This document shows, one piece after another, positions 1,343 through 55,380 of a stretch of 64,000 nt of DNA. Position 1 is the stretch's first letter. Each line of letters opens with the position of its first letter. The notes below the pieces were generated by a model, which ran no database searches, was not told the DNA's origin, and saw nothing but the letters and a program-made list of their open reading frames with translations. Made by a program: the position numbers and the translations under genes. Origin of the DNA: Styela clava (Eukaryota > Chordata > Ascidiacea > Stolidobranchia > Styelidae); assembly GCF_964204865.1 (NCBI RefSeq), contig NC_135251.1:12028001-12092000 (forward strand), read 5' to 3'.

Positions 1343-2564
1343 ACTAGAAGGCTCATATTTCCTCGGCATTGCAACAGAACTGAGCCCTAGACAAAACAGC
1401 GAGCTTGCCACGTATTATCAATACCAATATTTTATAACAATAAAAACAAGCGATCGTTACTCAAATATGTAAACACGAAGACCTAAACTCATTTGCCTAA
1501 GCCCATTTTCCAAAAAATCATAGATTGAACGAAGCTTATCTGTGAGTTAATTCGATTAAAAGATTCATGCAATAAATTCTCTTGTTCTGAATAATAAGTT
1601 TTGACAAGAAAAAATATTCAAATCAAAATTCGTTGTCCGAATCCGTCATTATCGAATCGTCATCTGTACTGTCGGGAAAAAGAGCTAAACTGAAAAAAAA
1701 AATTAATAAATGCACTGCTATACATTGTAAAGTAGCAAATCACGATGAATTAATTTATGAATACATATAAAATGTCGACCTGATACGGAAGCTAATGCAT
1801 GTTTTAATATTAAAACGGATTCAATAAGAAAAATTTGCAAACTAATAAACGCTATCTCTCTCGTACGGAAATTGAGTAAATATTGAACTGTTTTAATTGA
1901 TTTCCGCGGGACCATGAACGTAGTTAGATTTGGTCTGGATTTATTGTTGAAAATAATACCATAAGCTTTTATATTCCAGAAACTTTTTGTTTGCTTTAAA
2001 TGCGTTTTTGTACATTATGACGTGGCAAGTTGACAATGAATATTGAAATAATTTATACCTTCATCCACTTTCAAACAATTGAACAATTTTACAATTACCT
2101 ATCCGCTCAACAATTTCACAACCAAAAATAAAATTTTTCTTGATATTCGTTGTCGAATTAATGTGATTATTATTCAGATTGATCACCTGTTGAAATCGCA
2201 ACAAATATCACAAAGATTGAAATCCAGAATAAATTTTCTCTGTTGTTCTAGGTTAATTAAAAATTGCAAAGCATATCGAAATACCAGATAAAAATTGACC
2301 TATGCATAAATAATCCAATCTGATTATTCAATCAATAGAATACGCCTGCTTTCGTAGACATAAATAAACAATAAATGCAATTACCTAAGCCTAAACCTCT
2401 AGCGATTTCTTCAGCCAGACGCCTATACAATTCTAGAGGCAAAAATTTTCCATGATCTTTGCTATCAAATGAACGAGATGCTTCTTCAGATTGGTCACCA
2501 TTTCCTATCGCAACAAATATTACACAGATTGAAATCTAGAATAATTTTATCTGTTGTTCTAGGT

Positions 2565-3694
2565 CAGCGTTTCCCAACCTTTTTTGGTCGCTGTCTATTT
2601 TCTCATCGGCGAAAACCTTTGCGGACTCAAGGTGCGTTTATTGCAACCGTACTCTGTGTGAAGAGCCATGAAACCAAACACACGAATCGTATACCAGGCT
2701 AGGGATAGGCGGTTGCTTCGACTTATGACAAGAATACTTTTTCAAAAGTAATCGCCGCTTATACGTAACTCGTTAAAAGAGCCGACTTTTCAATGATTTT
2801 TTCGATTACATAAAGTATTCAATCCATCACCGATACAGGTATTTTTTAGATGGGTTGCTTTATCATTAATTTATTTGTAATCGTTTTAATCTGCGGTTGT
2901 GTTGACGAAATAAAAGAAACACTACTCAGAAAATCCCATGACAATCCGTGGACACAAAAATGCGTGGTGAAGTGCCCGATTATATTTTGTTTTGATTCGT
3001 ATTTCTGTGAATTCAACAAATCTGATCTGTTCGTGCAACACATATGGCAGTACTTTACAAACCAATGTGTAGGCAGGAAAACAACGAATTCTGAGGAGAA
3101 ATGCCCCGGTACGTATACTACGGTAGCACCCGAAATTTTGCGATATGCAATGTCCAAAAAAGCGTTTTTATTCGGTCGCGGACTATCATAAAACAAAACT
3201 TATGGTGTTCTCCGTTTTATTTTTAGTATTTTGTATTGCCGCTTTCAAATTTGGAAAATTTGGGTGGCCATCATTGATACCTACCAGAAAATAAAATTAT
3301 TCCTCGTTGTTCGAACTCACGAGAAACACCACTTAGGTATCTATCGGAGATGTACAGACTCGTGATTTTGCCGGAAATCCGCAAGTTGTGAAATCCAATC
3401 GTTTGATCCAATCTGTTATCAAATTTTCGAATAGTAAATTGATATACTAATAGTTGAATATTCAAATATATGCCCAGCCCTACTCAGTAACCAGTAATTA
3501 TTGACTCGATTAATGTTATGTGAATAAACTTACTTTTTATCTTTTATATAAATTCTAACGTAAATCGTAACTCGGCTGATAGTTAAGTTTCGCAAAAACC
3601 TTTGCGACCCGCAGTGAATTTCTGTCTCGTTGCGGACTCATTCAAACGCTCCGCGGACTCATTTGAGACCGCGGACTCGGGTTGGGAAACACTG
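2565..3694 (+). mobile_element. hAT-like element, 1,130 bp, perfect 8-bp TSD
   Basis: Terminal inverted repeats CAGCGTTTCCCAACC and GGTTGGGAAACACTG are flanked on both sides by the target duplication TTCTAGGT (2,557-2,564 and 3,695-3,702). TIR type and TSD length fit the hAT superfamily. No transposase was recognised, so it is nonautonomous. It lies in an intron of copy A. It carries a small secreted-type ORF described separately. Confidence 0.85.
2850..3191 (+). CDS. Small secreted cysteine-rich ORF inside hAT element
   Basis: An uninterrupted 113-residue ORF, not recognised as any family. Residues 1-16 (MGCFIINLFVIVLICG) look like a signal peptide. The rest holds six cysteines at 38, 42, 47, 53, 73 and 85 (spacing C-x3-C-x4-C-x5-C-x19-C-x11-C), plus one at 17 by the predicted cleavage site. 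The ORF lies wholly inside the hAT element at 2,565-3,694 and shares its strand only by convention. An open frame of similar length exists antisense, so chance cannot be excluded. No introns or promoter were identified. It could be a captured host gene fragment or a chance ORF. Confidence 0.3.
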   Translation: MGCFIINLFVIVLICGCVDEIKETLLRKSHDNPWTQKCVVKCPIIFCFDSYFCEFNKSDLFVQHIWQYFTNQCVGRKTTNSEEKCPGTYTTVAPEILRYAMSKKAFLFGRGLS

Positions 3695-4423
3695 TTCTAG
3701 GTTAATTAAAAATTTGCAAAGCGTATCGAAATAACAGATAAAATTTGCCTAATGCATAAATATTGCAATCTGATTATTCAACCAAAGGAATACGTCTGCT
3801 TCCATATAATTGAACAATAATTGCAATTACTTATGCGCTCAGCGATTTCTTTAGCCAGGAAATATATTTTCCATGATCTTTGTTATCAGATGAACATGAT
3901 GCTCCTTCAGATTGGTCACCTGTTGGACAATTACTCAATTATTGCAAACTTGAAATTAGAAATAACTTTTAAAAAATATTGGACAGCGCAATGTCGGCCT
4001 AACTCACTCAAAATCAAGAAATATATCTCTGGAGGGAAGGTATACCGACATTATACAAGTGAGCCAAAGTAATAAATCGCATATGACAACCGAAATGTTT
4101 TGATAAAGCATTGTTAAATATAAAAATCCGGTTGAAATACATTGGTAGGATTTAATGGTTCATTTCAATTCAAAATTAAAATAAATTAGAATGTTTGAAA
4201 AGTGACGACATTTGATGACGCAATGAAGCAATCAATGTCAACTAACCTGATCAATCCAAAACTGCAGACCATCATGGCCAGGATAAATACTGCAATCTTT
4301 GCCGACATTTTCTTCGATTTGAAGTTGTCTTGTTTTGTAGACTGAAATCGACTGTGTGGGCTGTCCACAACATTCGCATTTTCATAAATCTCGTTTCCTG
4401 TGTGTAAACAGATGTTTCATTAT

Positions 4424-6850: not shown

Positions 6851-7142
6851 TAAGCGCAAAGAAAAAATATAAATTTCTGTTGAGACGTGAGACTCCATTG
6901 ATTTATATATTTAAAAAATCTCTCTCGAGGTATTGGTTCAAAATTTGAGATTCCCAGATCGTACTCGCGTGTTTTAATCAGTACAAAACGTACATATAAT
7001 TTTATGCGCAAACTAACTAAGACACTGTTAATTCTATTTCTGCGCTTTTTTTCTCTTTATCCGTGAAACAATTGAACCAAAAGTTTAATGCATTAAAATC
7101 TTTTATTCTGAATAATAAGGTTTGGCAAGAAAAATATTTAAA

Positions 7143-10100
7143 TCAAAATTCGTTGTCTGAATCCGTCATTATCGAGTCGTCATCTGTATTGTCAGGAAGA
7201 AGAGCTAACATGGGAAAAAAAATTAATAAATACACTGTTATACACTGTGAAGTATCAAGGTAGCAAAGCATGACAAATGAAGTTATATATATATATCAAA
7301 TGTCGAAATGATACGAAAGCTAATGCATGTTTTAATATTAAAACAAATACAATAAGACAAACGGAAGGTCGCAAACAAACAATATAATACAAATCATAAT
7401 TACAATTACCTATAGGATCAACGATTTCAGCGCATCCACCAGGTTCAAAATGTTCCCTTTTCGAGATCGTTGTCATCAAATGAATGAGATGCTTCTTCAG
7501 ATTGGTCACCTGTTACAATCGCAATAATTGTTACAAAGGTTGAAATCCAGAATAATTCTTATCTGTTTTTTTTTCAAATTTATTCAGAAATTGCAAAGCA
7601 TATCGAAAAAATAAATAAAAATTTGCAGAATACATAAGTTATAGGTCTGATTATTCAACTAATCAAATTTGGAGAATTGGACAATTTCGATTATTTTTGA
7701 TAATTCAAGACTTTGTTAATGCTGTTGTTAATACGGCTGCTTTTATGTAATTGAACAATAATTGCAATTATCTATGTGATCAACAATTTCTTTCATCACA
7801 GAAAAAACCACGCCCCCATAATTCAACATGATTTCTGTCATCAACTGAATATGATGCTTTTCAGATTGGTCAGAATTACAAAAATAATTGCTCATTTGAA
7901 ATTGGAATAATTTTTAGAAGACTTCAATAATATTGTTGCATGCTGAACCAAATTTTATTTTTTGTTTCGTCATGATGTATTTAATTATTTCACAATTGTT
8001 TATTCCCTTGAACACTTTCGACAGAACCTACACAGCCCTAAGAAATTTCTCAGTATCTTTGTTGTCAGGCGAACGCAATGCCTTCTTAGACTGATCACCT
8101 GTTAATATTACAAAAATATCGTCAAGAAACGATATTTCAACATTTGACTTGCGGTGTCGCTTGAATTACATACTATTTTTGAGCCTGAGAACACCGAACA
8201 AGGGTAATATGAGAAATATGAGTCCAAAAACTTTTTACAAAATTGAAAGTATCAGGCAAATTAGTCACATGTTCCATCAAACTTCAACAATTTTGGGAGT
8301 TTTGGAAATAAAACTGAAATGAATTTTTGAACATTTGGCGGCAGGGAATAGAGAAATTGTAGTTGAAGTTTAGAACTTATTCGACATAATGTGCTGAATA
8401 CATAAATAATGCAATCTGATTATTAAATCAATAAAATTAAGATACTATTTATAATTACCTGTGTCCTTGTCTCCCATTACCCAAAGGAACCATGTTCTCT
8501 TATTATCTTCGTTGTCGGACGAACGCCATACCTTCTCAGACTCATCACCTGTTAATATTACAAAAATATCGTCAAGAAACGATATTTCAACATTTGACTT
8601 GCGGTGTCGCTTGAATTACATACTATTTTTGAGCCTGAGAACACCGAACAAGGGTAATATGAGAAATATGAGTCCAAAAACTTTTTACAAAATTGAAAGT
8701 ATCAGGCAAATTAGTCACATGTTCCATCAAACTTCAACAATTTTGGGAGTTTTGGAAATAAAACTGAAATGAATTTTTGAACATTTGGCAGGAAATAGAG
8801 AAATTGTAGTTGAAGTTTAGAACTTATTCGACATAATGTGCTGAATACATAAATAATGCAATCTGATTATTCAATCAATAAAATTAAGATACTATTTATA
8901 ATTACCTGTGTCTTTGTCTCCCATTACCCAAAGGAACCATGTTCTCTCATTATCTTCGTTGTCGGACGAACGCCATACCTTCTCAGACTCATCACCTGTT
9001 AATATTACAAAAATATCGTCAAGAAACGATATTTCAACATTTGACTTGCGGTGTCGCTTGAATTACATACTATTTTTGAGCCTGAGAACACCGAACAAGG
9101 GTAATATGAGAAATATGAGTCCAAAAACTTTTTACAAAATTGAAAGTATCAGGCAAATTAGTCACATGTTCCATCAAACTTCAACAATTTTGGGAGTTTT
9201 GGAAATAAAACTGAAATGAATTTTTGAACATTTGGCAGGAAATAGAGAAATTGTAGTTGAAGTTTAGAACTTATTCGACATAATGTGCTGAATACATAAA
9301 TAATGCAATCTGATTATTCAATCAATAAAATTAAGATACTATTTATAATTACCTGTGTCTTTGTCTCCCATTACCCAAAGGAACCATGTTCTCTCATTAT
9401 CTTCGTTGTCGGACGAACGCCATACCTTCTCAGACTCATCACCTGTTAATATTACAAAAATATCGTCAAGAAACGATATTTCAACATTTGACTTGCGGTG
9501 TCGCTTGAATTACATACTATTTTTGAGCCTGAGAACACCGAACAAGGGTAATATGAGAAATATGAGTCCAAAAACTTTTTACAAAATTGAAAGTATCAGG
9601 CAAATTAGTCACATGTTCCATCAAACTTCAACAATTTTGGGAGTTTTGGAAATAAAACTGAAATGAATTTTTGAACATTTGGCGGGAAATAGAGAAATTG
9701 TAGTTGAAGTTTAGAACTTATTCGACATAATGTGCTGAATACATAAATAATGCAATCTGATTATTCAATCAATAAAATTAAGATACTATTTATAATTACC
9801 TGTGTCTTTGTCTCCCATTACCCAAAGGAACCATGTTCTCTCATTATCTTCGTTGTCGGACGAACGCCATACCTTCTCAGACTCATCACCTGTTAATATT
9901 ACAAAAATATCGTCAAGAAACGATATTTCAACATTTGACTTGCGGTGTCGCTTGAATTACATACTATTTTTGAGCCTGAGAACACCGAACAAGGGTAATA
10001 TGAGAAATATGAGTCCAAAAACCTTTTACAAAATTGAAAGTATCAGGCAAAGTAGTCACATGTTCCATCAAATTTCAACAATTTTGGGAGTTTTGGAAAT

Positions 10101-11106
10101 AAAACTGAACTGAATTTTTGAACATTTGGCAGGAAATAGAGAAATTGTAGTTGAAGTTTAGAACTTATTCGACATAATGTGCTGAATACATAAATAATGC
10201 AATCTGATTATTAAATCAATAAAATTAAGATACTATTTATAATTACCTGTGTCCTTGTTTCCCAATACCCAAAGGATGCCAACAGGCCAGATTCTCTCAT
10301 TATCTTCGTTGTCGGACGAACGCAATGCCTTCTCAGACTGATCACCTGTTTAAATTACAGAAATATCGCAAAGAACAAGAAATTTCAACAATTTGACTGT
10401 GATGTCCTTTGTATTGGAAAATATTAGACAGAGCAAGGTCGGCATAACACACTCAAAATCAAGAAATATATCTCTGGAAGGAAGGTATACCAACATTATA
10501 AAAGTGAGCACAAGTAATCAATCGCTTATGACAACTAAAATGTTTTGTTAAAGCAATTTTAAGAAAGCTAATGATTTGCCACTCTTACCACGTACCCATA
10601 AATTAGAAAAAAGTTATAAATAAGATACCCGACTGAAATCAGATAAATTTAAATATCTATAAATCTTTCTTTTAAGTAAGTAATAAGTATTTCTATCGAT
10701 TGTTTTTAATAAAATTCGAGAATTAGGAATCTTGAAACATCGCTCAAATTGAAAGTATCTGGAAAAGTAAGTCACGTGTTCAATCAAATTTAAACAATTT
10801 AATTAGTTTATGAGAGTAAAGATATTTTGAACATTTCACATTATTTGTAAACAGAGTTTGAGAACTTATTCGACAGAGTTTAACTCTTCAAAAATTAAAG
10901 GAAATAGGAATATTCATCAACTTACGTGGCTCAAGAGACTTTGCGCTGTGAAAATTAGAATAAAGAATTATATTAGTTATAAAATGCCGTGAAAATACAA
11001 TACCGGCATTCGATGATGCAATGAAGCAATCAATGCCAACCAACCTGATCAATCCAAAACTGCAGACCATCAAGGCCAGGATAAATACTGCAATCTTTGC
11101 CGACAT
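7143..11106 (-). CDS. Copy B: secreted protein built from tandem acidic exon cassettes
   Basis: Unrecognised gene. Exons by splice sites: 11,106-11,045 (signal peptide MSAKIAVFILALMVCSFGLI, ends phase 2); 10,945-10,926 (20-nt micro-exon giving AKSLEP, ends phase 1); 10,345-10,247 (99 nt); 9,889-9,800; 9,442-9,353; 8,995-8,906; 8,548-8,459 (90 nt each); terminal 7,204-7,143 (ends DDSIMTDSDNEF-stop). All repeat exons start GT after AG and end before GTAATT, phase 1 at both ends, so each adds 30-33 residues in frame. Each encodes an acidic spacer (DESEKVWRSSDNEDNER) and then a Trp-rich hydrophobic stretch (TWFLWVMG or IWPVGILWVLG) and a KDTG end. The joined CDS is 603 nt, 200 residues. Alternatively the exon at 8,098-8,028 supplies the stop (203 residues). 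Role unknown; a multi-module secreted precursor is my inference. The pro-region AKSLEP recalls tunicate antimicrobial precursors, but the modules are acidic. Confidence 0.5.
7410..7509 (-). pseudogene. Frameshifted repeat exon of copy B
   Basis: Good acceptor (AACAG|GTGACC) and donor (ATAG|GTAATT). The start DQSEEASHSFDDNDLEK matches the intact cassettes, but the length is 100 nt, which is not in the 2+3n+1 series, and the frame runs into TGA after GTF. It is probably skipped, or marks decay of the 3' part of copy B. A further relic at about 7,750-7,885 has lost both the acceptor and the donor GT. Confidence 0.55.
8028..8098 (-). CDS. Possible alternative last exon of copy B
   Basis: After a normal acceptor the frame reads DQSKKALRSPDNKDTEKF and LRAV, then stops at TAG (8,030-8,028). 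The exon is followed by a poor donor-like GTTCTG. The intron on its 5' side is one of the five near-identical array introns. If used it would end the precursor here; if skipped, the preceding phase-1 exon joins the terminal exon at 7,204 in frame. Confidence 0.35.
8099..10246 (-). repeat. 447-bp exon-plus-intron tandem array
   Basis: Five near-identical introns (8,099-8,458, 8,549-8,905, 8,996-9,352, 9,443-9,799, 9,890-10,246) alternate with four near-identical 90-nt exons, a strict 447-bp period except for 3 extra bases in the first intron. Introns and exons are equally conserved. Long open frames on the plus strand (8,461, 8,908, 9,355, 9,802) are repeat shadows. Confidence 0.9.
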
Positions 11107-11209
11107 TTTTCTCCGGTTGGAAGTTGTCTTGTTTTGTAGACTGAAATCGACTGTATGGGCTGTCCACACCCGTCGCATTTTATACATTTCCCTTTCCTGT
11201 GTGTAAGCA

Positions 11210-12235
11210 TATGTTTCATTGATGATGATTACAGATGTTTTTATTATTTTATGAAATATTTTTCTGATGACATCCGGATAAATAAATAATTTTCTCTAGT
11301 TACCACGAATTGGATCCAGCTGTAGCTAGGATTAGATATTCGATTTATAATATTCTAATAAATAAAAATGAATAAAAAAATAATTTGCCCCTTTCATCGA
11401 AACGTAGATAAAAAATATAAATAAAAATCATTTAACGAAACAAACATAGATAAGTTATTCTGGTTGGCGTGATAAAACTATTGCAGGAATATAATTTGAA
11501 ATAATTCGACGAAAACTCATGCTAACAATATGTCGGTAATATCTGGTCCATTCATAAAACATGCTAGAGTTTAAAACATCTTAATTATGATTTTACTGTA
11601 ATAAAACAACTAAATGATATTACTTAGCTTGAAACATACGTTTGTTATAGAAATAAAGTTTATTAAACAATTTTCCCCCAATTTGCTCAGAAATTTTGCA
11701 ACACCATATTGGGATTTTTAATTTGAGTTAATGATATATTTTTGTATAAATAAAACTGGCAATTTATAATAATTTCCGCTTTTATTCATTAGTTATATAT
11801 TCCATAAAAAATTGAGTCTGGTATCAGTTAATCTGTTTTATTGCATAATAATTATTGGATGGACCAGGTGCTACCAATATATTGATGGCATGAGTTTTCG
11901 TCGAAATATTTCAAGTTATTCAATAAGTAACACGATAAATACATCTGCTGCAGATTATTACATTAATAAAATGTGCACAGAAATATGAATAAGTTACTCA
12001 TTAAATCTTTGTATTCATTGAAATTTTTTGTTAGCCTTCTGAAAATTCTGAAAAATGTTTCCATATAACGTTTTTAGATTGCATTAAATGCGTCAAGTCA
12101 AACTGAAAAACTTGTATACGTTTGTTTTATGAAATGAATTTTATTTATCTGTTGTCTATAGATTTCGAGAAAAGACCGAATTATCTTGTCTAATGATTTT
12201 GTTTCTTTATAACAGTCATTGGTGTATGTTATAGT
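11210..12235 (+). repeat. Upstream flank of copy B, head-to-head R1 repeats
   Basis: Holds no gene. About 11,240-11,560 continues the reverse-strand flank that copy A shows at 4,670-5,460. At about 11,560 the orientation flips and a plus-oriented R1 copy runs to about 12,235. A further inverted fragment (12,300-12,470) repeats the region just upstream of the signal exon. Confidence 0.6.
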
Positions 12236-12479
12236 TTTGAAATGAATTGAATGGTAGGCGATGTTTTTTCTGTCTCAAATAAGATAATAATACCATACGA
12301 TACAATGAAACAAATTGCTGCAGCTGGATCCAATTTATGGTAACTTGTAAAAAGTACAAAGTATTTATTTATGCGAATGTCATTAGAAAAATATTTCATG
12401 GAATAATAAAAACATCTGTAATCATCATCAATGAAACATCTGCTTACACACAGGAAAGGCAAATGTATCATGATTTGCT

Positions 12480-17055: not shown

Positions 17056-18831
17056 TAATTTTATGAAATAAAATTTCAGATTAACTGCTACCAAACTCAG
17101 TTTTTTATAAAAGATATAACTAACGAATCAAAGCGAAAAATATTATGAATTGCCAGTTATATTCATACTAAGATATCACAGTAAATCCAATTGATAACCC
17201 CAACATGTTATTGCAAAATTTCTAAGCAAATAGGGGGGGAAGTTTTTCAATAAACTGTATAAACATTTTTCAGAAAGCTAACAAACAATTTCAATGGATA
17301 CAAAGATTTAATGAGTAACTTATCCATATTTCTGTGCAAATTTTATTAATGTAATAATCTGCAGCAGATGTATTTATCGTGTCACCTAATTGAATAACTT
17401 GAAATATTTCGACGAAAACTCATCATCAATTATTCATCATCCATCCATCAATTATTACGCAATAAAATTTCAGACTGACTGCTACCAAACTCAATTTTTC
17501 ATGAAAGATATAACTAACGAATAAGAATCGGAAATTATTATGAATTGCTAGTTTTATTTATACCAAGATATATCAGTGACTCAAATTGAAAAGCCCAATA
17601 TGGTGTTGCAAAATTTCTGAGCAAATTATGGGAATTTTTTTTTATTAAACTGTTTTTCTATAACAGACGAATGTTTTAAGCTGAGTAATATCATTTAGTT
17701 GTTTCATTACAGTAAAATCATAATGAAGTTGTTTTAAACTCTAGCATGTTTTAGGAATGGACCAGATGTTACCAACATATTGTTGGCGTGAGTTTTCGTC
17801 GGAATATTTCAAATTATTCAATTAGGTGACACGATGAATACATCTGCTGCATATTATTACACAAGTGAAATTTTCGCAGAAATATGAATAAGCTACTCAT
17901 TAAATCTCTGTATCCATTGAATAAGTTTGTTAGCTTCATAAAAATTCCGAAAAATGTTTCCACATAACGTTTTTAGATTGCATTAGATTTATTATGCCAA
18001 TCAGAATAACTTATCTACGTTTGTTTCATTAAATGATTTTTACTTATATGGTTGTCTCGATGTTTCGATGTGGGGGTCATATTTAATTTGTCATTTATTT
18101 TTTTATTAGAATATTATAAATCGAATATCTAATCCTAGCTACAGCTGGATCTAATTCATGGTAACTATGACTAGTAAAAAGTAATAAGTATTTATTCATC
18201 CGGATGTCATCAGGAAAATATTTCATGAAATAATAAAAACAATCTGTAATCATCATCAACGAAACATCTGCTCACACACAGGATCAGGTTGGTTGAAATT
18301 GATTGCTTCATTGCATCATCGAATGCCGTCACTTTTCAAATATTCTGATTTATTTTAATTTTGAAATAAAATAAACTACCAGATACAATTTAACCATTAT
18401 CTTTTTTCCCGGATTTACATATATATATAATTTTCATTCTGTATTTACAGCGCCAAGTCTCTTGAGCCACGTAAGTTGTTAAATTTTCAACTTCCTTTAA
18501 TTCCAAAGATTAAAATTCTGCCGAATAATTTTTCAAAGTCGTGTACCAATCATGTGAAATTTTCAGATTTGCATTCGGTGCTCCCGAAGTATTCCTACCA
18601 GCAGTGGCGTAGCATCCACCCCCGCAACCCCCGCGGTCGGGGGAGGGGGGGGGCACATCGCAAAGGGGCCCCAAGCGGTTAGAATTTAGAAATTCAAGCC
18701 GCAAAACCAAAAGCTGCATTGCAAAACCAGTAATGCACATCTAATTATAATGTTGATTTTAGTTCTGCTCAAATTGTATTGTTACGTAATAATGCTGGAG
18801 TCGTCGATTTTCGGCGTCATGTGGTTTGATA

Positions 18832-20029
18832 TAGAGATGTACCGATGTATCGGTATCGGGTATCGGTAATATCGGCCATTTTTTCGGTATCGGCCAAGTA
18901 TCGGTATCGGTTAGATTAAGGTCAATATTTCCGATATATTTATCTTTTTGATATGATCCAGAATATTTTAAAAGATAAGTTGGAATACTACTTTTGAATT
19001 TATTTTTTGTCTGGATAGATCGTGAGCTATGAGCCATACATGTCCCCACTCCTGCGAGAGAATAGGATGCACGTGTTTTAAGCTATTTATCAGCCAAACT
19101 AATTTGGCTATTTTTGCTGTCAACTTTTTATATTGACAGTTATAATATTATATAGTAATTATGAAGAAATATATCAACACAGCATATAACAAAAAGCAAC
19201 TGGCGCCCAGTTTTAAATCAAACAGTGGATTTGGGGTCCTTATTAACGGCACATGGACTTTGGGCACGGATACAAATTCTGACTGTTTGTCGTCAAGTAC
19301 GAGTGTCATTTAGTCCTTCAACATCGATAAACTAAATTCCGACACAACTATCCCTCTACGCTGAATTTTGTTTAACTACACAATATCTTTATAGATATAT
19401 TGACATGACCGCTTAGCCCTAGACTGTCTCAAAATATATGATGGCAATTGGCAATTGTATAATAATAAAAAATAGTAAAGTAAAGAAAAACATCCTCGAC
19501 GGTTATAGGTAGGTGTTCTTTGGGTCGGTGCTGATTGATATTCTTTCATGTTGGCTTTGCCTTATCGGGTCGACGATTTCGATTAGCCACGAAATAAAAT
19601 ATTTGTAAAATGCTGTTAATTCGAACGTAGGACGGCGGCGCTAGGATGTCTGGGTGATATTCGATATTCTTTTAAACACGAATAACGATATTCGAAGGTC
19701 GCGATATTAACATTAAATTCAAATTGGACATCCCGGCTTATGAGTTTTCTAATTGAACACCGAGATTACTATCGTTACTGTACAATGTATCTTAATCAGT
19801 TTCATATTATGTGATATATCTTTTTTTTCGATCTGAAATAATGTGTACTATGAACAACGCTAAAAAACCATTGTTTTAACCCGCCTGCCTTACACAGCAC
19901 AACTAATTAAGTAATAATTACATAGTATCGGTATCGGAATATCGGTAATATCAGCCTTATTGTAGTATCGGCGTTTTCAGCTAGTATCGGATCGGTATCG
20001 GCGACAAAGGTGGTATTGTTAAATCTCTA
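18832..20029 (+). mobile_element. Nested hAT-like element with TATCGG-rich ends
   Basis: Inserted within the outer element. Ends are TAGAGATGTACCGATG and TATTGTTAAATCTCTA, imperfect inverted repeats. Flanks are GTTTGATA and GTTTGATC (7 of 8 identical). Subterminal regions are rich in 'atcggtatcgg' motifs. A relative of the same end lies at about 57,905-57,948. No transposase is recognisable. Confidence 0.75.
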
Positions 20030-20066
20030 GTTTGATCGTACCGGCACAATTACGAAAGTTGTCAAA

Positions 20067-20340
20067 ATGATGTCGAAAGCAAAACCTCTCAGTGGCGCAC
20101 AGAAACGAAGAAAAAGGGCAGAAGAGGAAGAACGTATAAAAAAAAATCAAAGTAACCAAGATAAGCGAAATATTTAAACCAAAATTGAAACAAGTAGACT
20201 TGGGAATACCGAACGTAACTGAGGAGGAATTAAGCCTAGCACCGGTAGTATCGGTAGAAAACCAGATACGTGTTCAATCTTCAAAACTGATGGCGGCGGC
20301 GCGAATGATTTTTCTTCCAAAACTTACACGACAATTATAA
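20067..20340 (+). pseudogene. hAT transposase N-terminal remnant
   Basis: Begins MMSKAKPLSGAQKRRKRAEE, a basic/acidic start typical, from memory, of some hAT-type transposases (an LSGAQ-R-K-type N-terminus). It stops after 38 codons. The coding thread appears to continue in another frame (KISEIFKPKLKQVDLGIPN onward), consistent with a frameshift in the A-run near 20,140. The catalytic core is missing, so the element cannot move by itself. Confidence 0.5.
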
Positions 20341-22229
20341 CAGGCAAGCTACTGATTTTTGAAGCAAATTGAAAAAATTAATATGACAAAGATGTTGGAT
20401 GAGTTTGCTAACGCGAAAGCACGATCGCGCAAATTTTAGGTTACCATAGCCTTTATATAGCGACATGTTATGCTTTTTGACGAAATAAAAAACGTTGTTT
20501 CAGCTCATGTCCTAGGGTTTTAGGGTCATTTCCACTAAATATTTTGCGGGGGGGGGGGGGGGGGGGTCTTGCTACGCCACTGCCTACCAGTATGTCGAAC
20601 AACTTGAACACAGTATGTGTACCAGCTGATGTTCCAGCTGATGTGACTTATTTGGAACGATAATTTGAATTATGTGCGATGTTTCAAGATTCCTATTTAC
20701 GGAATTTTGCCGAAAAAGCATTAAAAAAATGCAGTTTTATTTGTTCACAAACATTTTGTAAAACCATAAGTAACGCAACTCAACACTTAATAGATATTTA
20801 GTTTTGTCTGATTTCAGTCTGTATTTTATTTGTAACCTTTTCATTCTTCACGAGTACGCGGTAAAACTGGCAAATCATTAGCTTCCTCGTGCTTTATAAA
20901 AAAATTTTAGTTGTCCTATGCGATTGATTACTTTGGCTCACTTTTATAAAGTCGGTTTACCTCCATTCTAGAGATATATTTTTTGAGGTTGAGTCTGTTA
21001 TGCCGACATTGTCCTGTCCAATATTTTCTAGTTCAAATAACATCTCAGTCAAAGTGTTTCAATATCTGTTCTTAACGATATTTTCCTAATATTAAAAGGT
21101 GACCAGTCTAAGAAGGTACTGCGTTCGCCCGACAATCTGATCACAGATAACGAAGATCATGGAAAAATTTTCGAATTGCATCGTCTGACTGAAGTCGCTA
21201 AGCTCATAAGTAATTGCATTTATTGTTCAATTATATCAAAGCAGACGTATTCTATTGGTTGAATAATCAGATTGCATTAATTATGCATTCAGCAAATTTT
21301 ATCTGTTATTTCGATACGCTTTTCAATTCCTGAATAAATTTGAAACAACATATAACAATTATTCTGATTTTCAATCTTTGTATCAATTGTTGTGATAGGA
21401 AAAGATGACCAATCTGAAGAGACATCTTATTATTTTAACAAGAGATCAATCTGAAGAATTATCACATTGATTCGACAACAAAGATCAAGAAATTTTTTAT
21501 TTTTGGTGGTGAAGTTGTTGAGCGGGTAGGTAATTCTAAAATTGTTTAAATAAGTAAGGTATTTTATTAGGAAATGTTGACTTGATGCTTCGCAATGTAC
21601 AAAAACGCATTCAAAGCAAACAAAAAGTTTCTGGAATATAAAAGCTTATGGTATTATTTTCAACACTAAATCCAGACCAAATCTAACTACGTTCATGGTC
21701 CTGCGATAATAACAGTTCAATATTTACTCAATTTCCATACAAAAGAGATAGCGTTTATTAGTTTGCAACTTTTCCTTATTGAATCTGCATTAATATTAAA
21801 ACTTGCATTAGTTTCCGTATTATTTCGACATTTGATTTGTATTCATTAATTAATTCATCATGCTTTGCGACTTCACAGTGTATTCATTATTTTTTTGTTT
21901 CCAGGTTCGATCTTCTTCCTGACAATACAGATGACGATTTGATAATGACGGATTCAGACAACGAATTTTAATTTGAAAATTTTTTCTTGTCAAACCTTAT
22001 TATTCAGAATAAATAATTTAATGCATGAAACTTTCAATTGAATTTAGTTCCCGGATATAGAAAAAGAGAGAGAAATAAAACTGAATAAAACACGCGAGTA
22101 CGATTTGTGAATTTAAAATTTTAAATTAATACCTCGCAAGATTTTTTCCTATTAATCAAATCAATGGAGTCTCACCTTCCAACAGATATTTATATTTTTA
22201 CCGGACCAGACGGCGTCGCCATAGCTATC

Positions 22230-29136: not shown

Positions 29137-32100
29137 TTATACCTCACACATATAATAATGATAAAAGTTGCAAGCTTCGTCCTCAAGTTTTCCATCGTTG
29201 GAAACAGACATTAAAACACAATCAGCTTCAAACTTGTACATAAAAAATTGAGTAAAATTGCTCGGTTGACCGGTCATCCAATCTATCTTGTTAGAGACGG
29301 TCGCGACACCGTCCAACCATTTCCACTGACCTTCTGCAAACACATCTCGCAATCCAATCCATGTTTTGAGATTTTTTCTGAGCCCAAGACCCGAAATAAT
29401 CTCGCTATAAAAATACAAATGATATATATAATCAATAGCATATAAATAGGAGATAAAATGTGGCAACACTACAACAGGAAAACAGCGATGTAACCGAGCT
29501 CGCACAATATGCCTGGATCCATAAAAGAAATAGAATCCAACCCTACAGGAATGATCAAAACAGCGAAGTAACCCAGGTCGCACAATATCCATGGAAACAT
29601 ACAGGGAGTATAGGACGCATCGTACGTTTATAAGAGAGATAGAAAGAATATATAAAAAGTGGCAACCCTACAGGAATGATCAACCAGCGATGTAACCGAG
29701 CTCGCACAATATGCCTGAATCCATAAAGGGAGCAGGATGTATCCAACGTTCGTGCCAAAGAGCAATAAATATATGGTCAATAAGGGCACGCATCGCTACA
29801 ACAATAGCGAAACACCGAGATTGCTCGAAAGATGTCAATCGTCATGAAATGAAGTATTGCTACACGTCATAAAAGTGTCTTTATGAATGGGAATAAACAA
29901 CAAAACTTGGGATGAAATATCCCGTGGTGGAAATTTGAAAAAAATATAATGTAATTTCATAATCATTTCTGTGAATATTTTCTATTATCTTGGCCACGCA
30001 AACACATGCATTCTATACTATATTATGTGAACAAAAGAGACTCTCGAATCCCTTGGGATAGTTACTGATCTTCACTCTTGTTATAGCATCCTCACATTAT
30101 ATGCATAAGGATGCACCGTAACAAACAGCATAGAAGAAGGATAAGTAATTAGTCCCGCAGGGATCGACCCAATCGATAGTAAAAGTTTATATATTTACCT
30201 CTTCAACTTTTTATCTCGGATTCCAGCAGATGCTAGTCTACCTCCCAGACGCTCACAGGAATGCATCGCGTCCGTGAATGTGAGGTCGTTATCGAAGACT
30301 TTGTACATTTTACCGTTGCTGGCTTCGTACCAATTTTCTGACTTAATAATCAGATTCATAATTTCTGAATAATATAATATTAAACGAATTGCAATATAGT
30401 AAACCGCAGGAAATAGAATAGTAAAAATACAGCAACAGTGTCTATTCGTATGATAAAGGACTTTTAGCTGCCACTTAGGGAAGAAACCATTATACAATTA
30501 AACGCAACTGAATACGCTGAAGTTGGAAAACGTACTAGGTATTGATAGGTATTTGTTTGTTTGTTTGTCTGTCTGTCTGTTTGTTCGTCTGTTAGACACT
30601 TTCGTATTTCACGCGATATCTCACGAAAGCGAGGTTTAATCTGCTCCAAATGCATGTGCATTCATCATACCTCGGACCAGAAGACTAATGATTTTGGATG
30701 AATTATGTCGTACAATTAGCGAGTTAATAATTAATTAGTGATGGGACACACGGTGTCGCTGTCGCTGGAGTAAGAGCGGATGAATCGAAACCACAGTTCC
30801 TGTTTTGGGATCCCCTATCTTTCGATCGATAAGTCTTCGGTCTCTGACCGATATTCTCGTTTAGGTATTAGTCATTTACAATTATCAGAAATTTGGTGCA
30901 GGCCCAGAAAAATAGTTCTGCAGGGCTGTAGGCCACTTCACGATCCAATTCTGTATTTGAATAAGTCATTAACAGCATCAAATATTGCTAAACACTTACT
31001 CGGTTGCTTGGAGTTCTTGACCTATAAAATAAAAGTACATGTTAAACAATAATGCTTAAATCTACGTTTCTCAACCAGAGAAGAATTTTGTAGTTCTTGA
31101 AGAGGAGTTTTGTTTGTATTGGCTGTAAGTATTACCAATATTTTTTAGTTCCATTTTGAAACTATAATACTTAGTTATATACACATTATAAACTACTTAT
31201 ACCGTATAAAAGCGGAGTGCGACTTGCGCCTACACTAGATGAAGATATATTGAATATTGAACATAAAGTAGTTTTTACGCATAGTGTGAGAGAAATACAT
31301 AGTTTCAAAATGCGCAAATGGGGGAATTAAACGAAAAATGTTGGGAATCACTGTCTTACATAAAAACTATAAACATCCGAGTGAGAATATAGTCAAGGAG
31401 AAAGAGCTTGAGCCTGCTATTGCGGTTGCAAGCTCATACTGCCCGATACTGGATAAAACAAAACAAAAAATAGTCGTGCAGGTAGGCGACATTGCAAAAA
31501 GTGACGTATTTTCGAATGCCTGCCTGATCCGTGAGAGAAGAGACAAGGTCTTGGAATCAAAACCAACCGTTTAAAATACCGTACTGTCGTAAACCGAACA
31601 TTGTAGCTACATAAAACATTATTAGAATAGGTAAAAGTATAGCGATTGCTGATGTCCCAAAACGCTAACACTTGAACATCGAAGAGTATAGTTTAGATAA
31701 AAAATGGTACTCCTGACGTATGCGCACCAAGATGTCGCATAACCTGTACCCTAACCTGAGTTCAGGTTGTGCGCAATCTTGGTGCGCATACTTCAGGAGG
31801 TCCCAAAAATATTTATTGAATTGCATTGATTGCAGCATATTCTGATTGAATCGTAGTGAGCCGATACAACTACAGAGTTTGTGAAGACATTGACATACGG
31901 TAATTGTAAAACAAAACATTCTTATCAAAAACCCTTTATTAAGTAACAAAAAAAAGAAGTAATATTATCACGATATCGGAAGCATATCTTGTAATATACT
32001 GTATGTATTTACATGTACACGTAAAGCCATTGTCCTATGTATATATATACATATTTGCCAACCCTTCGGGTATAATCCGGATATTCATTAATCGAATGCG

Positions 32101-38530: not shown

Positions 38531-41500
38531 TTATGTCCCGGCTTCATCAATGGTCCTCGCATAAGGAGAATTCCAATCTCTTTCAAAAACTGCTTTTAAT
38601 TGAACGTGAATGTTGCGCTCACTTGCAACGCTGCCTTTCTTCTGTGATATGATAACTGAAACTCCAGCCGTGTCCAGAAAATAGTCACCAGACCAGTTTG
38701 AGGTACCTTTAAAAAAAGTTTGTTAAATGGTACATACAGAGCTAACATGAGTGAAAAGACTGGGAATTTACCCGATCGCTACCGAGTTTAGTATAAGATA
38801 TCATTTTTATCCCAGAAGGAAAAAAGCTGATAAGATGGCTTAATCATATGGCGTACCGCTAGACTTCTTGTCAAGCCACCAGTCCATGTCAGATATGGGA
38901 TTAGTTAGCAAGTTATTTGTTTCTGATGCACGGACTCAATGGTGGCAAGTGTATTCCTAGCGGTTAGTATGATGCGGTACCCACCGCGTCGCGTTGGTCA
39001 AAAAACGTATCATCCTCCATAGTAAAAATGAAAATAGGGACAATAACTGACCAATAAAAGCCGTTGTTTCTGTCACCATATATTTATTGTGATTGACTCT
39101 TGAATATGGAAGGTTTTCTTGTGCAGGTGTATAAGCCGGTACTTCGAACATTTTCTGGAAGAAAGAAATAAGTTTGGTCTCATTTGAAATCTTAAAATGA
39201 TAAAATAACAAGGGTTGATTGTACTTTGGTTTATACGATTATCTCAATCACAAAAAAATGAGCATAATAACAACACAAGGGTAAAAAAAAACATGAATGA
39301 ATGCTAAATTCGTTAGAACCAGAAACATTCTGCTTGCACATAGGAGATTAAGAATACAAACATGGAACAATAGCATTTCTCAAATTTCAAAAAGATTCAC
39401 ATAATGTAGAAGCACAAAACTTTGGCATAAAAGAAGAGTCTTATTGCATATAATTCAACAAAATATTGTAGAAACTATAAAATATCCTGGAGAAATATTA
39501 GATTTATTGTGAACCAAGGACAGCAAGTAGTGAGAAACGGATGTACACAGTGTTACAAAAAACAATAGGGCCGTGCCAAAACTAAATTTGATCGCAATCT
39601 CAACAAATTCCTTGAGGTAATTTTAACAAAAAAATCAAAATTTGATTTCAGTTTGATTTTGCCTTGAATTACCGAACGAACCGGATGTGACCAGCGGGCC
39701 ATACTTTGCTCGTGTCTGGTCTAGTAACGAATAAACCAAATTTGTTCTTACCACTTCAATAGTGCCGTTCCTCATTGCAGGACTGACGTCTTCCAATGAC
39801 CTAAGAAAAGCTTTAACAGTTTGTTTGCTGTATTTCCACCAGGATGGCATTAATCTCACTTTCACACCTCTCTCAAATGCAGCTGCTCTCAGCCTGTTAT
39901 CAATGATTGGCCAGTACCTATGAGAAAAGAGACATTTCACATTTAAATAAAGGTGCGATGGGTGGCGAATCGAGCAAAGCATCAGGAATAGGCTCGTTAT
40001 TACCCTTTGTGGGTTCGCAGCTTCGAATCTCCCCATGAATGATTATGTGCGAGAGGATTGCTGTTCGCTGGACCCATCGCCAGCATAGGGTGGTTCATAT
40101 AACTGCTGGTCGATTACAGCCCCGTCCACCACCAATGCTAGGGCTGGGAATGGTCAACCGGTTGATCGATTTTTGATGGTTACCGGTTGCAATTTCAAAT
40201 ATCAACCTATATTGTTCACTTAAAATACTTCCATATGTCCGAAGCACGCTGCCTATCTCTTGCAGCAGGGTGATCATGAAACTATCACGATTCATGAATA
40301 ATATAGAGTCTATAGAGCGATAATTGTTACGCAAAACGTCACACTGCGGTTAACCAGTTAATTTTCCCTGGTTAACAATTGGAAGTGAAATTCCAAGCCC
40401 TACTAAATACCCAATTAGACCGGTAACCTGACAAGAAGCGTGCCACATAATTAGTAGTCTCTTCTCCCACATGCTCAAATTCCTAAAATATACAAATTGG
40501 AACTGGTCAAATGGAACTGTAATAAGCAAATTTGTGTGAATTTATCTTGAATTCCCGCTAGTAACTTTTGCTATCCCAATACCTGATCTGGTAACAAGAT
40601 AGGATACAGGAGTGTCAGCAAATGTTTTATCACCCTTTAAAACAAATGTGAAAAATTTGTATAGCTATAAAACCCAAAATAATGGTATATAATGCTGTAC
40701 ATACACATTATTCTTCTGGTACAATGTTACTGGGAAATAATCCATAAGAGCAATATAGATAAATTCTTGAGCCTTGTCTATGATGTCTAGAAGAGCAGTT
40801 AGATCTGATGTACGACCCTCCGGTAGAAACTGGGGAGGTGCAACCTGAAACGATTTATTCCGTTAAAATATTATTCTAAAAATATTAGATATAAAATTAA
40901 ATCACAAGCATTATTTTTTATGCAGAAATACTTGCAACGGGACTACAAGCACATATAATATTGCAATGCAGAACAGTGTGCAATAAAGCTGCTCCGAAAG
41001 TGTGTGTACCAATATGGAGGTAACTAATTTTGTTCGCCTACTTTACATCAATTTGTATGAAGAAGGGACTTAAACCAATGGGCAGGGGGTAAATTCACTT
41101 GGTTAACACAGACAGTTTCCAAATCCATAAAAAGAACTAACATTATTAAGAGGAAAATCTGAATAAAATAATGGCCTAATCCTAACCTGGTACATACACT
41201 ATGAACGTTTCCAATAAAGCTACACCAAAATAGGTAAATATAAGATGTTAATTGTAGTGGAAATGTGAAATGTGCCTATTTATAGTCTTATAAGTTTCGC
41301 CAAATCAAGTAGAGTCAGAAACAAAAGTGGTAAAAGTATTGAAACTATTTGCGCATCTCTGGAAGACATAAATTAGCTTATACATGGTGTCTCGAAAGTG
41401 AGTATACACTTTTAATTTTGATTTGCTTTTCAGGTATTCATCATAGAGCATTCAGTTCTTCAGGAAACATAGTATGGATAAGTAGTACAATTTAGGTATT

Positions 41501-44355
41501 GTTTGCATTTTTCAACAACCCACAAAATGACAAAGAAATTAACCCGATAAATGAGGTGCAAAACTGCTGTTTAGCAAAAAGCATATAATAAAGTAAGGCA
41601 ATCGAAACTTTTACGACGAAGAATTACGAAATTCATCAAAAATCCATGAAATCTGGATCTATGGACGCCCTGAGGAAAACATTCGAAGCTGAGAAGTGCT
41701 AAGTTTGCCGTACTGATTTTAATGCTTTTTGCCAATCAGCAATTTTGCTCCTCATTTTTTGGGGTTAATCCCTCTGTTGTTCTGTGGGTTGTTCAAAAAT
41801 GCAAACAATACCTAAATTTTACTAGTTTCCAATACTATGTTTCCTGAAGAAATGAACGCTCTATGACGAGTACCTGAGAAGAAAATCAAAATTAAAAGTG
41901 TATACTTACTTTCGAGATTACCCTGTAGATACAGTTTACCACTGCCATGTGAAGACTATTCTTCATATATCTGAGAGACATAAACTAGTCTACTCACTGA
42001 AATATACATAGTTTCATTCAGTCCTCCTATTTCAAGAGATGTTGGGTTCTCAAGATTAATGTCAGTTGCTAGTTCTGGGGGCCATTCAGCAGGTACTGTT
42101 GCCCCATCTTCACCTAATTTCCAATACACAGAAAAAACTTTTTGCAAATCACGCCCCATGCAAGCACAATCTGTTACCATTATGCCAAGCTCTTTAACCT
42201 AAAATGACAAGATGGAAAAAATAAAAGGCTATATTTAAAAGAGGTGAAATATTAATAGATAATTTTATATTCAGCATTACTATGTTAAGAATGTAAAATA
42301 TTGCTCTATCAATAAATATAGTAATGACTATGCCTATGTCCAAAACCCTGAGTACTTGTTGGATATGGAGTAGAGATCGTTTTGGTATATGTTGTTGTTA
42401 TTGGACTTCTTTTTTACTCATTATGAGAAAATCCCTCTTTTTTCAATTACAGCACCAATTGCTTTGAAATTTTCTGTGGTTATTAACAAAGATCGTGGTT
42501 GTCGCAAGACTGTTTATTTCACCAGATTTCTGTGGGCTCTACGAGATTTGTTTTTTGAATATGATGATGAATCATCGAAATAAATATTGCGCAACTTGTG
42601 GTGATCAGTCAAAGATAACTATACTACTGTACCAATACTGTGAAAGAATATATATATATATATACTATTTCGTTTGGGACTTTATGTCCATACATTCGAG
42701 CATTGCTTTCTTCTATCTTATAAATTATCACTGATTGCAAATGACAAAAAAAAATCACCTGTGTCAGAGACCGCCAATCAAGATTTGCACTTCCAACATA
42801 AAAATGCATGTTGTCAGCCATCCACATTTTTGTATGCAAGATGCCTGCACCGAGTAGCTTATCAAAATCAAGTGTTCGAACAGCAGCTGCTCCTTCATTC
42901 GCCAATATTGTAGTGTCATTCATTTGATTTGGATCACTGTTGTTATTTTGTGCAATCCGTATAGAAATGCCACCGTCTTTACCAACTTCAAGCAAGCGAT
43001 CAAATATTTTTTCTCCCTGTTTAAAAAATATATTTACCAATAATGTGAGTGAATATTAAAAATACGAGTTTATACAACAAACACTAAGGACAAAAAGTAG
43101 CATTGTAGTTTGAAGTCTTCTTCTTAAAAGAGTAACAAACCATCGCCTTAAATCAAATGTACTTACAGAAGAGTTACAAGCACAGCTGATTTTTAAAAAG
43201 AGACATGAGGGCCAGTTAATGGTATGTGGCTATGCAATAGATATCGTTTGGCATAACAAAATCTCACAGAGAAGGGTTACTGAAAATGTGCAGTTTTGTA
43301 TTTTGTTGTTGCCAAGGCAACCACTAATAGTAGATGGTAATGAAGCTGTTATTGGAAAGAATCCCGTTAACCTTCCAAGCGGATGGATCTGGAACAACAT
43401 CTTCTTCTCGCAAAGTCCAATAAGAAGATCCAATATCAATTCCATAGACTGCTTCATCAATGAGAGAATTCCAACTGGCATAAGTGTCCAGATGTGTAGG
43501 ACTGCCGGATGGAAATGTTAAATTGTCTGGTATTGTTTCCACTAATGTCAATCTATATTATAAAGAAAGATATAATATTTATTAGCAAATATATTGCCTA
43601 CCCAAAGACACTTTAATTGATGCAAAGTTGCAAAAGTTTATTCTTCATTATCTATTTCTTAATTCTCTACGAATGGATCATATGACCATAAGAGCTAAAT
43701 AAATATAAATAATTATTGCCTAAGGTTGCACTTAGGAAGTATTTATATAACAAATATAGACTTTTTGAAACGGCTGACGGCTAACTAACCATGCAACTTA
43801 GAACCAGACACCAGAATATCATTGAAACATAATGCTGTAATGTGAGTTTTCGTGTTGCTATGAAAAATAATTACATAGTTACTATAATAGGTGAGTGAAC
43901 ACGTACCACTTCTTTTGGAAAAACCTTCAAACATAAATTCTGTAGTCTATGGTTTATACCTTACTTACTGACTTAAGGTTTTGTTTGCTCTCCTAATTTG
44001 CAAAGCGGTTTTATTTATTTGTTTTCGTCAATATTTTATATTATTCTTATTTTCTGTTATGCTGATTATGGGGTCGAAATAAACTTATATCGATAAGTAG
44101 TCTACTACTATAACTACTGAAGTATGAAACAAATTTTACTCACTTGCAAATGTCAAAGCACTTGGTTGAATCAGCTGGTGCTGTATTCACTGGTGATAAC
44201 AAGACGGTAGCACATGCAGTCAGAGTAACCAGAGCAATAGTGGAACCCAGGAATATTATTTCCGATCTATGGAACTTTTTAAAGTTAACATTTTCTTGTT
44301 TTTTATCAGTTGCAGATTTCAATCCATCTGTAGCCGTAGCGTGGTCTGTGGACAT
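38531..44355 (-). CDS. Phospholipase D3/D4-like protein, eight exons
   Basis: Exons: 44,355-44,144, 43,552-43,372, 43,016-42,759, 42,198-41,998, 40,844-40,705, 39,917-39,752, 39,154-39,052 and 38,706-38,531. All have GT/AG borders and compatible phases; the joined CDS is 1,437 nt, 478 residues, close to vertebrate PLD3 (about 490). Residues 33-54 form one membrane span after a short cytosolic tail, as in type II PLD3/4. HKD motif 1 is H192-T-K194-x4-D199, followed by YVGSANLDWRSLTQ. HKD motif 2 is H408-N-K410-x4-E415, with Glu for Asp as in PLD3/4, then GTSNWSGDYF. In vertebrates these enzymes are single-stranded-nucleic-acid exonucleases of endolysosomes; that role is inferred. The start is the ATG at 44,355, just after an AG acceptor-like site (TGCTACAG). 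Introns hold MITE-2, MITE-1, R4 and SINE-like copies, and a hAT end lies close to exon 6. The gene looks intact. Confidence 0.92.
39545..39718 (+). mobile_element. hAT MITE fragment next to PLD exon 6
   Basis: Matches the right half of the 60,122-60,429 element: 'aactaaatttgatcgcaatc', 'tcaacaaattccttgag', then 'gcgggccatactttgctcg' and 'gtctgg'. The left half is missing. It ends 33 bp downstream of the exon 6 donor. Confidence 0.65.
39960..40140 (-). repeat. SINE-like repeat in PLD intron 5
   Basis: Reverse-oriented relative of 6,670-6,850: 'gggttcgcagcttcgaatct', 'tggacccatcgccagcata' and 'tgctggtcgatta' are recognisable. It lies just upstream of exon 6. Confidence 0.45.
40986..41207 (+). 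mobile_element. MITE-1 copy in PLD intron 4
   Basis: Begins 'gctgctccgaaagtgtgtgt', ends 'ggtacatacactatgaacg'. It lies antisense to the host gene between exons 4 and 5. Confidence 0.75.
42375..42712 (+). mobile_element. MITE-2 copy in PLD intron 3
   Basis: Shares 'gatcgttttgg', 'accaattgctttgaaatttt' and 'cattcgagcattgct' with 4,424-4,672. It fills most of the 560-bp intron 3. It includes a TA run near 42,648-42,663. Confidence 0.6.
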
Positions 44356-55142: not shown

Positions 55143-55329
55143 CTAATAAAAAACTAAAGAATATCAGTATAGTATACTACAGCCAATACAAAGCAAGATT
55201 TCTCCCCTAGAACGACATAATCCCCTACCGGTTGGGAAACTTTGGTTTAGCAGTTTCACTTATCGACTGTTTTGAGTATTACCGGTTCTCACTACCTGAA
55301 ATTACTCTGCTGAAATCTGACATTTCGTT

Positions 55330-55346
55330 TTTTTTTTATGTTACAG
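55330..55346 (+). promoter_or_regulatory. Splice acceptor upstream of NDUFV2 start
   Basis: A T-rich run followed by TTATGTTACAG ends at 55,346, and the ATG is 34 bp further on. It fits either the end of a 5' UTR intron or a spliced-leader trans-splice site, the latter common in tunicates. Which one cannot be told from the sequence. Confidence 0.6.
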
Positions 55347-55380
55347 TAAAATACTGACCAAATATCAACTAATATCAACC

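Follow-up and report, generated by a model that had tools for sequence, protein, structure and literature searches.

A putative clavanin-superfamily precursor gene with a tandemly amplified peptide exon in Styela clava

Introduction

What does a gene make when it repeats one small exon five times behind a signal peptide? The question is raised by gene A, which lies on the minus strand between positions 7143 and 11106 of a 64-kb stretch of Styela clava DNA (C2:12028001-12092000; hereafter the window). A sequence-only reading had described it as a gene for a lineage-specific secreted multi-peptide precursor or acidic repeat protein, in which each cassette exon encodes an acidic spacer followed by a Trp-rich hydrophobic block. 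Searching the genome (376.6 Mb) does not support the idea of a solitary gene: gene A belongs to at least 13 family loci, which we labelled A, B, C, D, E, F, G and H1-H6 for this analysis. Our answer to the question is that gene A is probably a secreted precursor of the clavanin superfamily with a tandem-amplified peptide exon, each block lying between clavanin-like cut signals, so that several peptides would come from one transcript. Clavanins are long-known tunicate antimicrobial peptides.

Results

Exon cassettes and the 3' end of gene A

The signal exon, the micro-exon and five intact phase-1 cassettes were all recovered where the earlier reading had placed them on the minus strand, with AG/GT borders. 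Exon 1 (62 nt, 11045..11106) encodes the signal peptide MSAKIAVFILALMVCSFGLI and ends in phase 2 at the donor gttggt, and exon 2, a 20-nt micro-exon (10926..10945), encodes (S)AKSLEP(R), leads from phase 2 to phase 1 and is common to clavanin genes. Cassette c1 (99 nt, 10247..10345) reads GDQSEKALRSSDNEDNER / IWPVGILWVLGNKDT, its first residue in the joined protein being Arg and not Gly because it directly follows the micro-exon, and c2 (90 nt, 9800..9889) reads GDESEKVWRSSDNEDNER / TWFLWVMGDKDT. Cassettes c3 (9353..9442) and c4 (8906..8995), of 90 nt each, are identical to c2, and the three are therefore not independent evidence; c5 (90 nt, 8459..8548) carries two changes relative to c2, one synonymous and one from E to K that gives NKR. 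All five are bordered by an AG acceptor and a GTAATT donor and are held by a minus-strand tandem array (8048..10398) with a period of 447 bp, 5.2 copies and 97% matches. The open frame is retained in 32/32 subsets of the five cassettes, in agreement with the earlier claim that such symmetric exons can be skipped without frameshift.

Two decayed remnants, both on the minus strand, had gone unmentioned beside the five intact cassettes. The first, cL (8028..8098), shares its acceptor with c2-c5 and contains an in-frame stop; an AATAAA stands at 8004, and no donor was found for cL, which is a possible alternative terminal exon, which would give a product of 203 aa. The second, c8 (100 nt, 7410..7509), also contains an in-frame stop, and its counterparts in D and E are likewise decayed. 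Upstream, TATAAAAT (11177..11184, minus strand) stands 78 nt before the gene A start codon. Intron 1 (11044-10946, minus strand, 99 nt) is open in frame, and its retention would therefore leave the protein unbroken; we rejected retention by eye, as the longer matching introns of C and D reach stops.

The earlier exon junctions held, with the probable exception of the last. Joined at the previously chosen acceptor, TTAG|CTC at 7204, the frame is indeed open over 200 residues; this acceptor is present in A, B and G only, whereas TACAG|ATGACG at 7183 is present in 12 of the 13 loci (all but G). A pyrimidine-rich stretch precedes TACAG|ATGACG in A-F, not in H, and the ALLPDNT residues of the longer tail look like the pyrimidine tract of this common acceptor in A-F. 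Both acceptors are in frame in gene A, and the choice between them is weakened by the six H loci, where an AG (ttaag|tc), open by eye, occurs near the place of TTAG|CTC. TACAG|ATGACG, 21 nt downstream of the acceptor first chosen, is probably the true last junction and would give a product of 193 and not 200 residues. The last exon of this preferred model (41 nt, 7143..7183, minus strand) encodes DDDSIMTDSDNEF and then a stop, and an AATAAA polyadenylation signal (7102..7107, minus strand) follows in a 3' untranslated region (UTR) that matches that of clavanin C. The 193-residue product has an isoelectric point (pI) of 4.2, 14 Trp, 1 Cys, 8 G-D and one dibasic KR.

A family of at least 13 loci

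Only the best candidates were scored in the genome searches, and locus counts are therefore lower bounds. Exon 1, micro-exon, cassettes and common tail are complete at 10 of the 13 loci (A, D, E, F and H1-H6), a repetition of the whole layout that, judged from sequence, is more than chance would give. The architecture that we read from these loci comprises a signal exon, a 20-nt AKSLE micro-exon, a variable number of phase-1 cassettes and a short tail exon. Complete loci carry 2-14 complete cassettes each, and our finder counted 56 over the 13 loci (A 5, B 0, C 1, D 6, E 14, F 3, G 1, H1 3, H2 5, H3 2, H4 8, H5 2 and H6 6), one of the three in F being a 183-nt double. Our finder accepted only lengths divisible by three, which leaves the unconditioned count of first donors in D and E as the sole test of the phase rule: 20/21 of them give multiples of three.

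The loci differ in arrangement. Locus D, just outside the window, is complete, with six cassettes ~190 bp apart, and locus E on C3 has 14 cassettes ~183 bp apart, nine with the donor GTATTA and the others with GTAATT. Loci F and G form a head-to-head pair, and H1-H6 form three such pairs at C3:17.60-17.65 Mb; the members of F/G, H1/H2, H3/H4 and H5/H6 are ~2 kb apart, the H pairs are three repeats spread across 40 kb, and this pairing suggests shared promoters. In G, exon 1 is present, and both the micro-exon donor and the tail acceptor appear by eye to be changed.

Exon 1 is conserved. Between A and B, 1/62 of its sites differ, against 32/169 in the flanks (23/122 upstream, 9/47 in the intron; pooled P = 0.0004), and the ratio of replacement to synonymous differences per site (pN/pS) is 0.33 over the 11 loci where the script found exon 1, G being missed though its exon 1 is present. 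For the last exon, taken with its earlier 62-nt border, differences number 5/62 for A/B (P 0.026), 4/62 for A/C (P 0.029) and 7/62 for B/C (P 0.25). Spacers and blocks share identities of 0.92 and 0.82 within genes (177 cassette pairs) and of 0.48 and 0.22 between gene groups (1096 pairs, which take in one mis-split row, the F double and the C cassette).

Link to clavanins

With clavanin A as query (letters taken from a portion of PMC4904370), we recovered a pair of C1 loci with identities of 83% and 87% across 23 residues. One of them encodes an 80-residue precursor in a 47-nt exon that ends in phase 2, a 20-nt exon and a peptide exon, and the mature part of this precursor is identical to clavanin C as printed in an excerpt of PMC8719109. 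The second exon of this gene, TGCAAAATCTCTGGAGGAAA, equals the family micro-exon in length (20 nt), in phases (2 to 1) and in coding AKSLE. The faint resemblance of AKSLEP to tunicate antimicrobial precursors that had been remarked on earlier was thus well founded. The exact clavanin C match also places the animal as Styela clava or a near relative, which comparisons of the nearby lectin and NDUFV2 stretches had failed to do.

We then used the micro-exon as a genome-wide pattern, including its splice borders and allowing up to two mismatches. It occurs at 20 sites, compared with 1 for the reversed control and 2 for a version with a 19-nt exon (C6:24178999 and C13:19226588). Family loci account for 13 of the 20 (A, C, D, E, F, G, H1-H6 and C3:17641854, the last known from the pattern match), and the other seven are clavanin-type: the two clavanin loci, two genes with Tyr repeats, and three sites known from the pattern match alone (C1:22073067, C10:21157590 and C13:3398030). 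At the 3' side, the 200 bases that follow the stop codon of clavanin C beat all 500 shuffles against the 3' UTRs of 11/13 loci, gene A included.

The two clavanin genes lie 36 kb apart (C1:10.54 and 10.57 Mb) and differ at 12/1800 sites, 5 of these 12 falling in the 69-nt mature peptide (P 5e-5). The two Tyr-repeat genes (C3:16860700-16863700 and C1:22044900-22047900) encode long Tyr-rich repeats in one exon, of which 181 residues were read in the C3 gene and 338 in the C1 gene; by eye both have a clavanin-like 3' UTR, and exon 1 was found in the C3 gene only. The C1 gene holds ~24 copies of a DQQDNGKGYYPPTY-type unit that resembles the clavanin tail DDQQDNGKFY. Their products are possibly structural or granule proteins of DOPA type.

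Searches of Pfam, PDB and Rfam gave no significant match for gene A (best Pfam E 0.23, best PDB E 0.28). In the open-licence literature, the block strings and Tyr-repeat strings do not occur, the matches listed for the AKSLE and WFLWV strings include no fitting title, and those listed for ascidian peptide precursors and the Styela genome include no such family. A prokaryotic or viral origin was considered and rejected, the 2 and 21 pattern stretches found there, respectively, including no relative by tblastn.

Cut signals and block properties

According to an excerpt of PMC8719109, the 80 residues of the clavanin precursor divide into a signal of 19, a pro-part of 10, a peptide of 24 and a posterior part of 27, and the peptide is amidated. 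Given these known ends and the amidation, the cuts must fall after EEEK and at G|DD. Clavanin thus reads EEEK|VF...VFG|DD, and family cassettes read E-K/R | block | G | D/E. Glu stands before the K/R that precedes the block in 54/56 complete cassettes (53 by script, plus one row that had been mis-split and was read by eye); the split rule sets the K/R itself. The junction codon between cassettes encodes Gly, except for one Asp in E, and the residue after it is D in 44, E in 9 and N in 3 of the complete cassettes. Cutting before acidic residues is noted for ascidian precursors in a passage of PMC7387483, and a G|D cut with amidation is inferred for haemocyte-derived Ciona CiEMa in part of PMC10888236.

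At the helix angle, the D, F and G blocks are amphipathic relative to shuffles (P 0.013-0.043) and carry a net side-chain charge of 0 to +2; the H blocks are weakly amphipathic (P 0.06-0.25), and those of A and E are not amphipathic (P 0.45-0.98). By this measure clavanin A scores 0/5000 shuffles, Ci-MAM-A 0.06 and Ci-PAP-A 0.03. Gene A blocks are Trp-rich stretches of 12-15 residues with no His, and are not the 23-residue His-rich amphipathic peptide of a clavanin proper. The predicted amidated block peptides would be TWFLWVM-amide for gene A, FWGLFVPLVKKAIEEI-amide for D and IFWWVPIVKEIVQAVKR-amide for H.

Paralogues and neighbouring features in the window

Two incomplete paralogues share the window with gene A. 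Gene B (1623..4308, minus strand) retains exon 1 (4308-4247), a tail (1663-1623) and cassettes at 3919, 2498 and 2186, none complete by the finder; a search for its micro-exon found none, and exon 1 joined to the first cassette reaches a stop. Gene C (18065..21971, plus strand) has lost exon 1 by deletion and keeps the micro-exon (18451-18470), one complete cassette (21099-21209) and a tail (21931-21971). Each paralogue is interrupted by a hAT-like insertion with an 8-bp target duplication and CAG-type inverted ends (2565-3694 in B, 18602-20582 in C). A promoter-region fragment (12317..12468, plus strand) is 86% identical to 11182-11326, with no exon 1 match at that place. Nearby coding stretches are those of a C-type lectin (29137-29667, minus strand), a PLD-like protein (39635-43055, minus strand) and NDUFV2 (55321-56121, plus strand, open as a single stretch).

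Discussion

How would such a gene work? In the scheme we favour, the precursor would be secreted, with the acidic spacer holding each hydrophobic block inert. Proteolysis after E-K/R and at G|D/E, with conversion of the Gly to an amide, would release a short peptide several times over from a single transcript. The number of cassettes would grow through unequal crossing-over, and any cassette could be gained, lost or skipped without frameshift. The products would then act as haemocyte host-defence peptides, the least certain step. The blocks of D, F and G are amphipathic, those of H weakly so, which fits membrane action and makes antimicrobial action plausible for the family, just possible for gene A; we infer it for the family as a whole, most weakly for gene A. 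The A and E blocks are a Trp-rich uncharged variant, perhaps with weaker or shifted activity. The idea of a secreted multi-peptide precursor thus stands more firmly than when first proposed, with 13 family loci and clavanin relatives behind it.

Several observations weigh against this scheme. The family blocks show by eye no resemblance to the clavanin peptide, and those of gene A are neither amphipathic (P 0.98 and 0.90) nor cationic (charge 0 and -1, in a precursor of pI 4.2). As to the cut signals, G-N comes after the c1 block, and under the preferred tail model the last cassette meets the tail D without a Gly, which would leave one copy per precursor without an amide donor. The clavanin link is uneven as well, with 14/20 micro-exon bases identical to clavanin in A (12-15/20 across the loci compared) and a 3' UTR match that fails in F (17/500 shuffles as good) and H3 (484/500). 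Between cassettes c1 and c2, differences occur at 9/90 sites in the exon vs 6/357 in the intron (P 0.0007), with 2/17 synonymous and 7/73 replacement changes (pN/pS ~0.8 on 9 changes); as the two rates are alike, exchange between copies explains the divergence as well as selection does, and positive selection on the cassettes is not claimed despite the excess of exon over intron divergence. Finally, with B and C incomplete, the micro-exon donor of G changed and two cassettes of A decayed, A itself might be decaying.

That last point leads to a rival account in which gene A is a decaying copy without a product and the function of the family resides in D, E and H. Besides the incomplete paralogues in the window and the decayed cL and c8, its exon 1 donor, gttggt, departs from the gttagt of the 10 other loci compared. 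Yet the gene A model has open coding exons, a conserved exon 1 and tail, a TATA and an AATAAA, and neighbouring D, outside the window, is complete; we therefore regard decay as unlikely. A similarly low likelihood attaches to a transcript that ends at cL instead of at the acidic tail: cL offers the acceptor of c2-c5, a stop and an AATAAA of its own, but conservation of the tail exon and its polyadenylation region runs through the family and extends in part to clavanin.

Other readings accept the product and question its processing. Gene A could encode an uncut secreted acidic Trp-rich repeat protein of tunic, mucus or granule matrix that reuses the clavanin leader, its cassettes being structural and not peptides. 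The low pI, the 14 Trp, the single dibasic site and the want of an amphipathic block in gene A all suit such a protein, as do the two other genes with a clavanin-type micro-exon that encode structural-looking Tyr-rich tandem repeats. It sits less well with a spacer and cut-site signature kept while the blocks diverge, and with the amphipathic blocks of D, F, G and, weakly, H, so we hold it to be rather improbable, if the most serious of the alternatives. A multi-copy precursor of amidated regulatory peptides cut at G|D seems very unlikely. The 8 G-D of gene A recall Ciona CiEMa, a haemocyte-derived product whose amidation and Gly/Asp cut are inferred in part of PMC10888236, but blocks only 0.22 identical between gene groups are unlike typical receptor ligands, and where a neuropeptide precursor would have dibasic sites between peptide copies, gene A has a single KR in 193 residues.

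Beyond gene A, we tentatively propose, at somewhat less than even confidence, that the micro-exon marks a superfamily of ~20 loci in which different parts of an ancestral gene of clavanin type were amplified independently: the peptide exon into 2-14 skippable cassettes, and a tail-like DQQDNGK motif into Tyr-rich repeats within a single exon. On this proposal, cassette gain, loss and exchange, possibly with alternative splicing, would be a fast generator of individual-specific sets of defence peptides. The micro-exon would be a simple genomic marker for finding the superfamily in other ascidians, and the family would serve both as a system for studying the expansion of exon arrays and as a source of unstudied natural peptides.

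The closest known system is that of clavanins A-D and clavaspirin of Styela clava itself. The clavanin loci share with the family a phase-2 signal exon, a 20-nt (N)AKSLE micro-exon, an acidic pro-part ending in K, a block followed by G-D, and the 3' UTR. Clavanins are described as single-peptide precursors in an excerpt of PMC8719109, their gene having one peptide exon that encodes both a His-rich peptide of 23 residues and a tail of 27, whereas the family has 2-14 separate cassette exons, no clavanin-like block and a short tail in an exon of its own. The Ciona LCAMP precursors (Ci-MAM-A, Ci-PAP-A and Ci-META4) are likewise secreted, ascidian and provided with an anionic part, but have one cationic helix each as listed in PMC7387483, a paper in which the word 'exon' does not occur. 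Tandem peptide exons are found in the magainin and caerulein genes of Xenopus laevis (part of PMC3731216), so the design works elsewhere. Those precursors are cut at RXXR, KK or RR (passage of PMC7387483), unlike the E-K/R and G-D signals of the family, and they belong to different animals and have a different leader; the likeness is one of design, with no homology implied. A sister family whose genes hold as many as 14 peptide exons would be a tunicate parallel of the Xenopus magainin/caerulein design.

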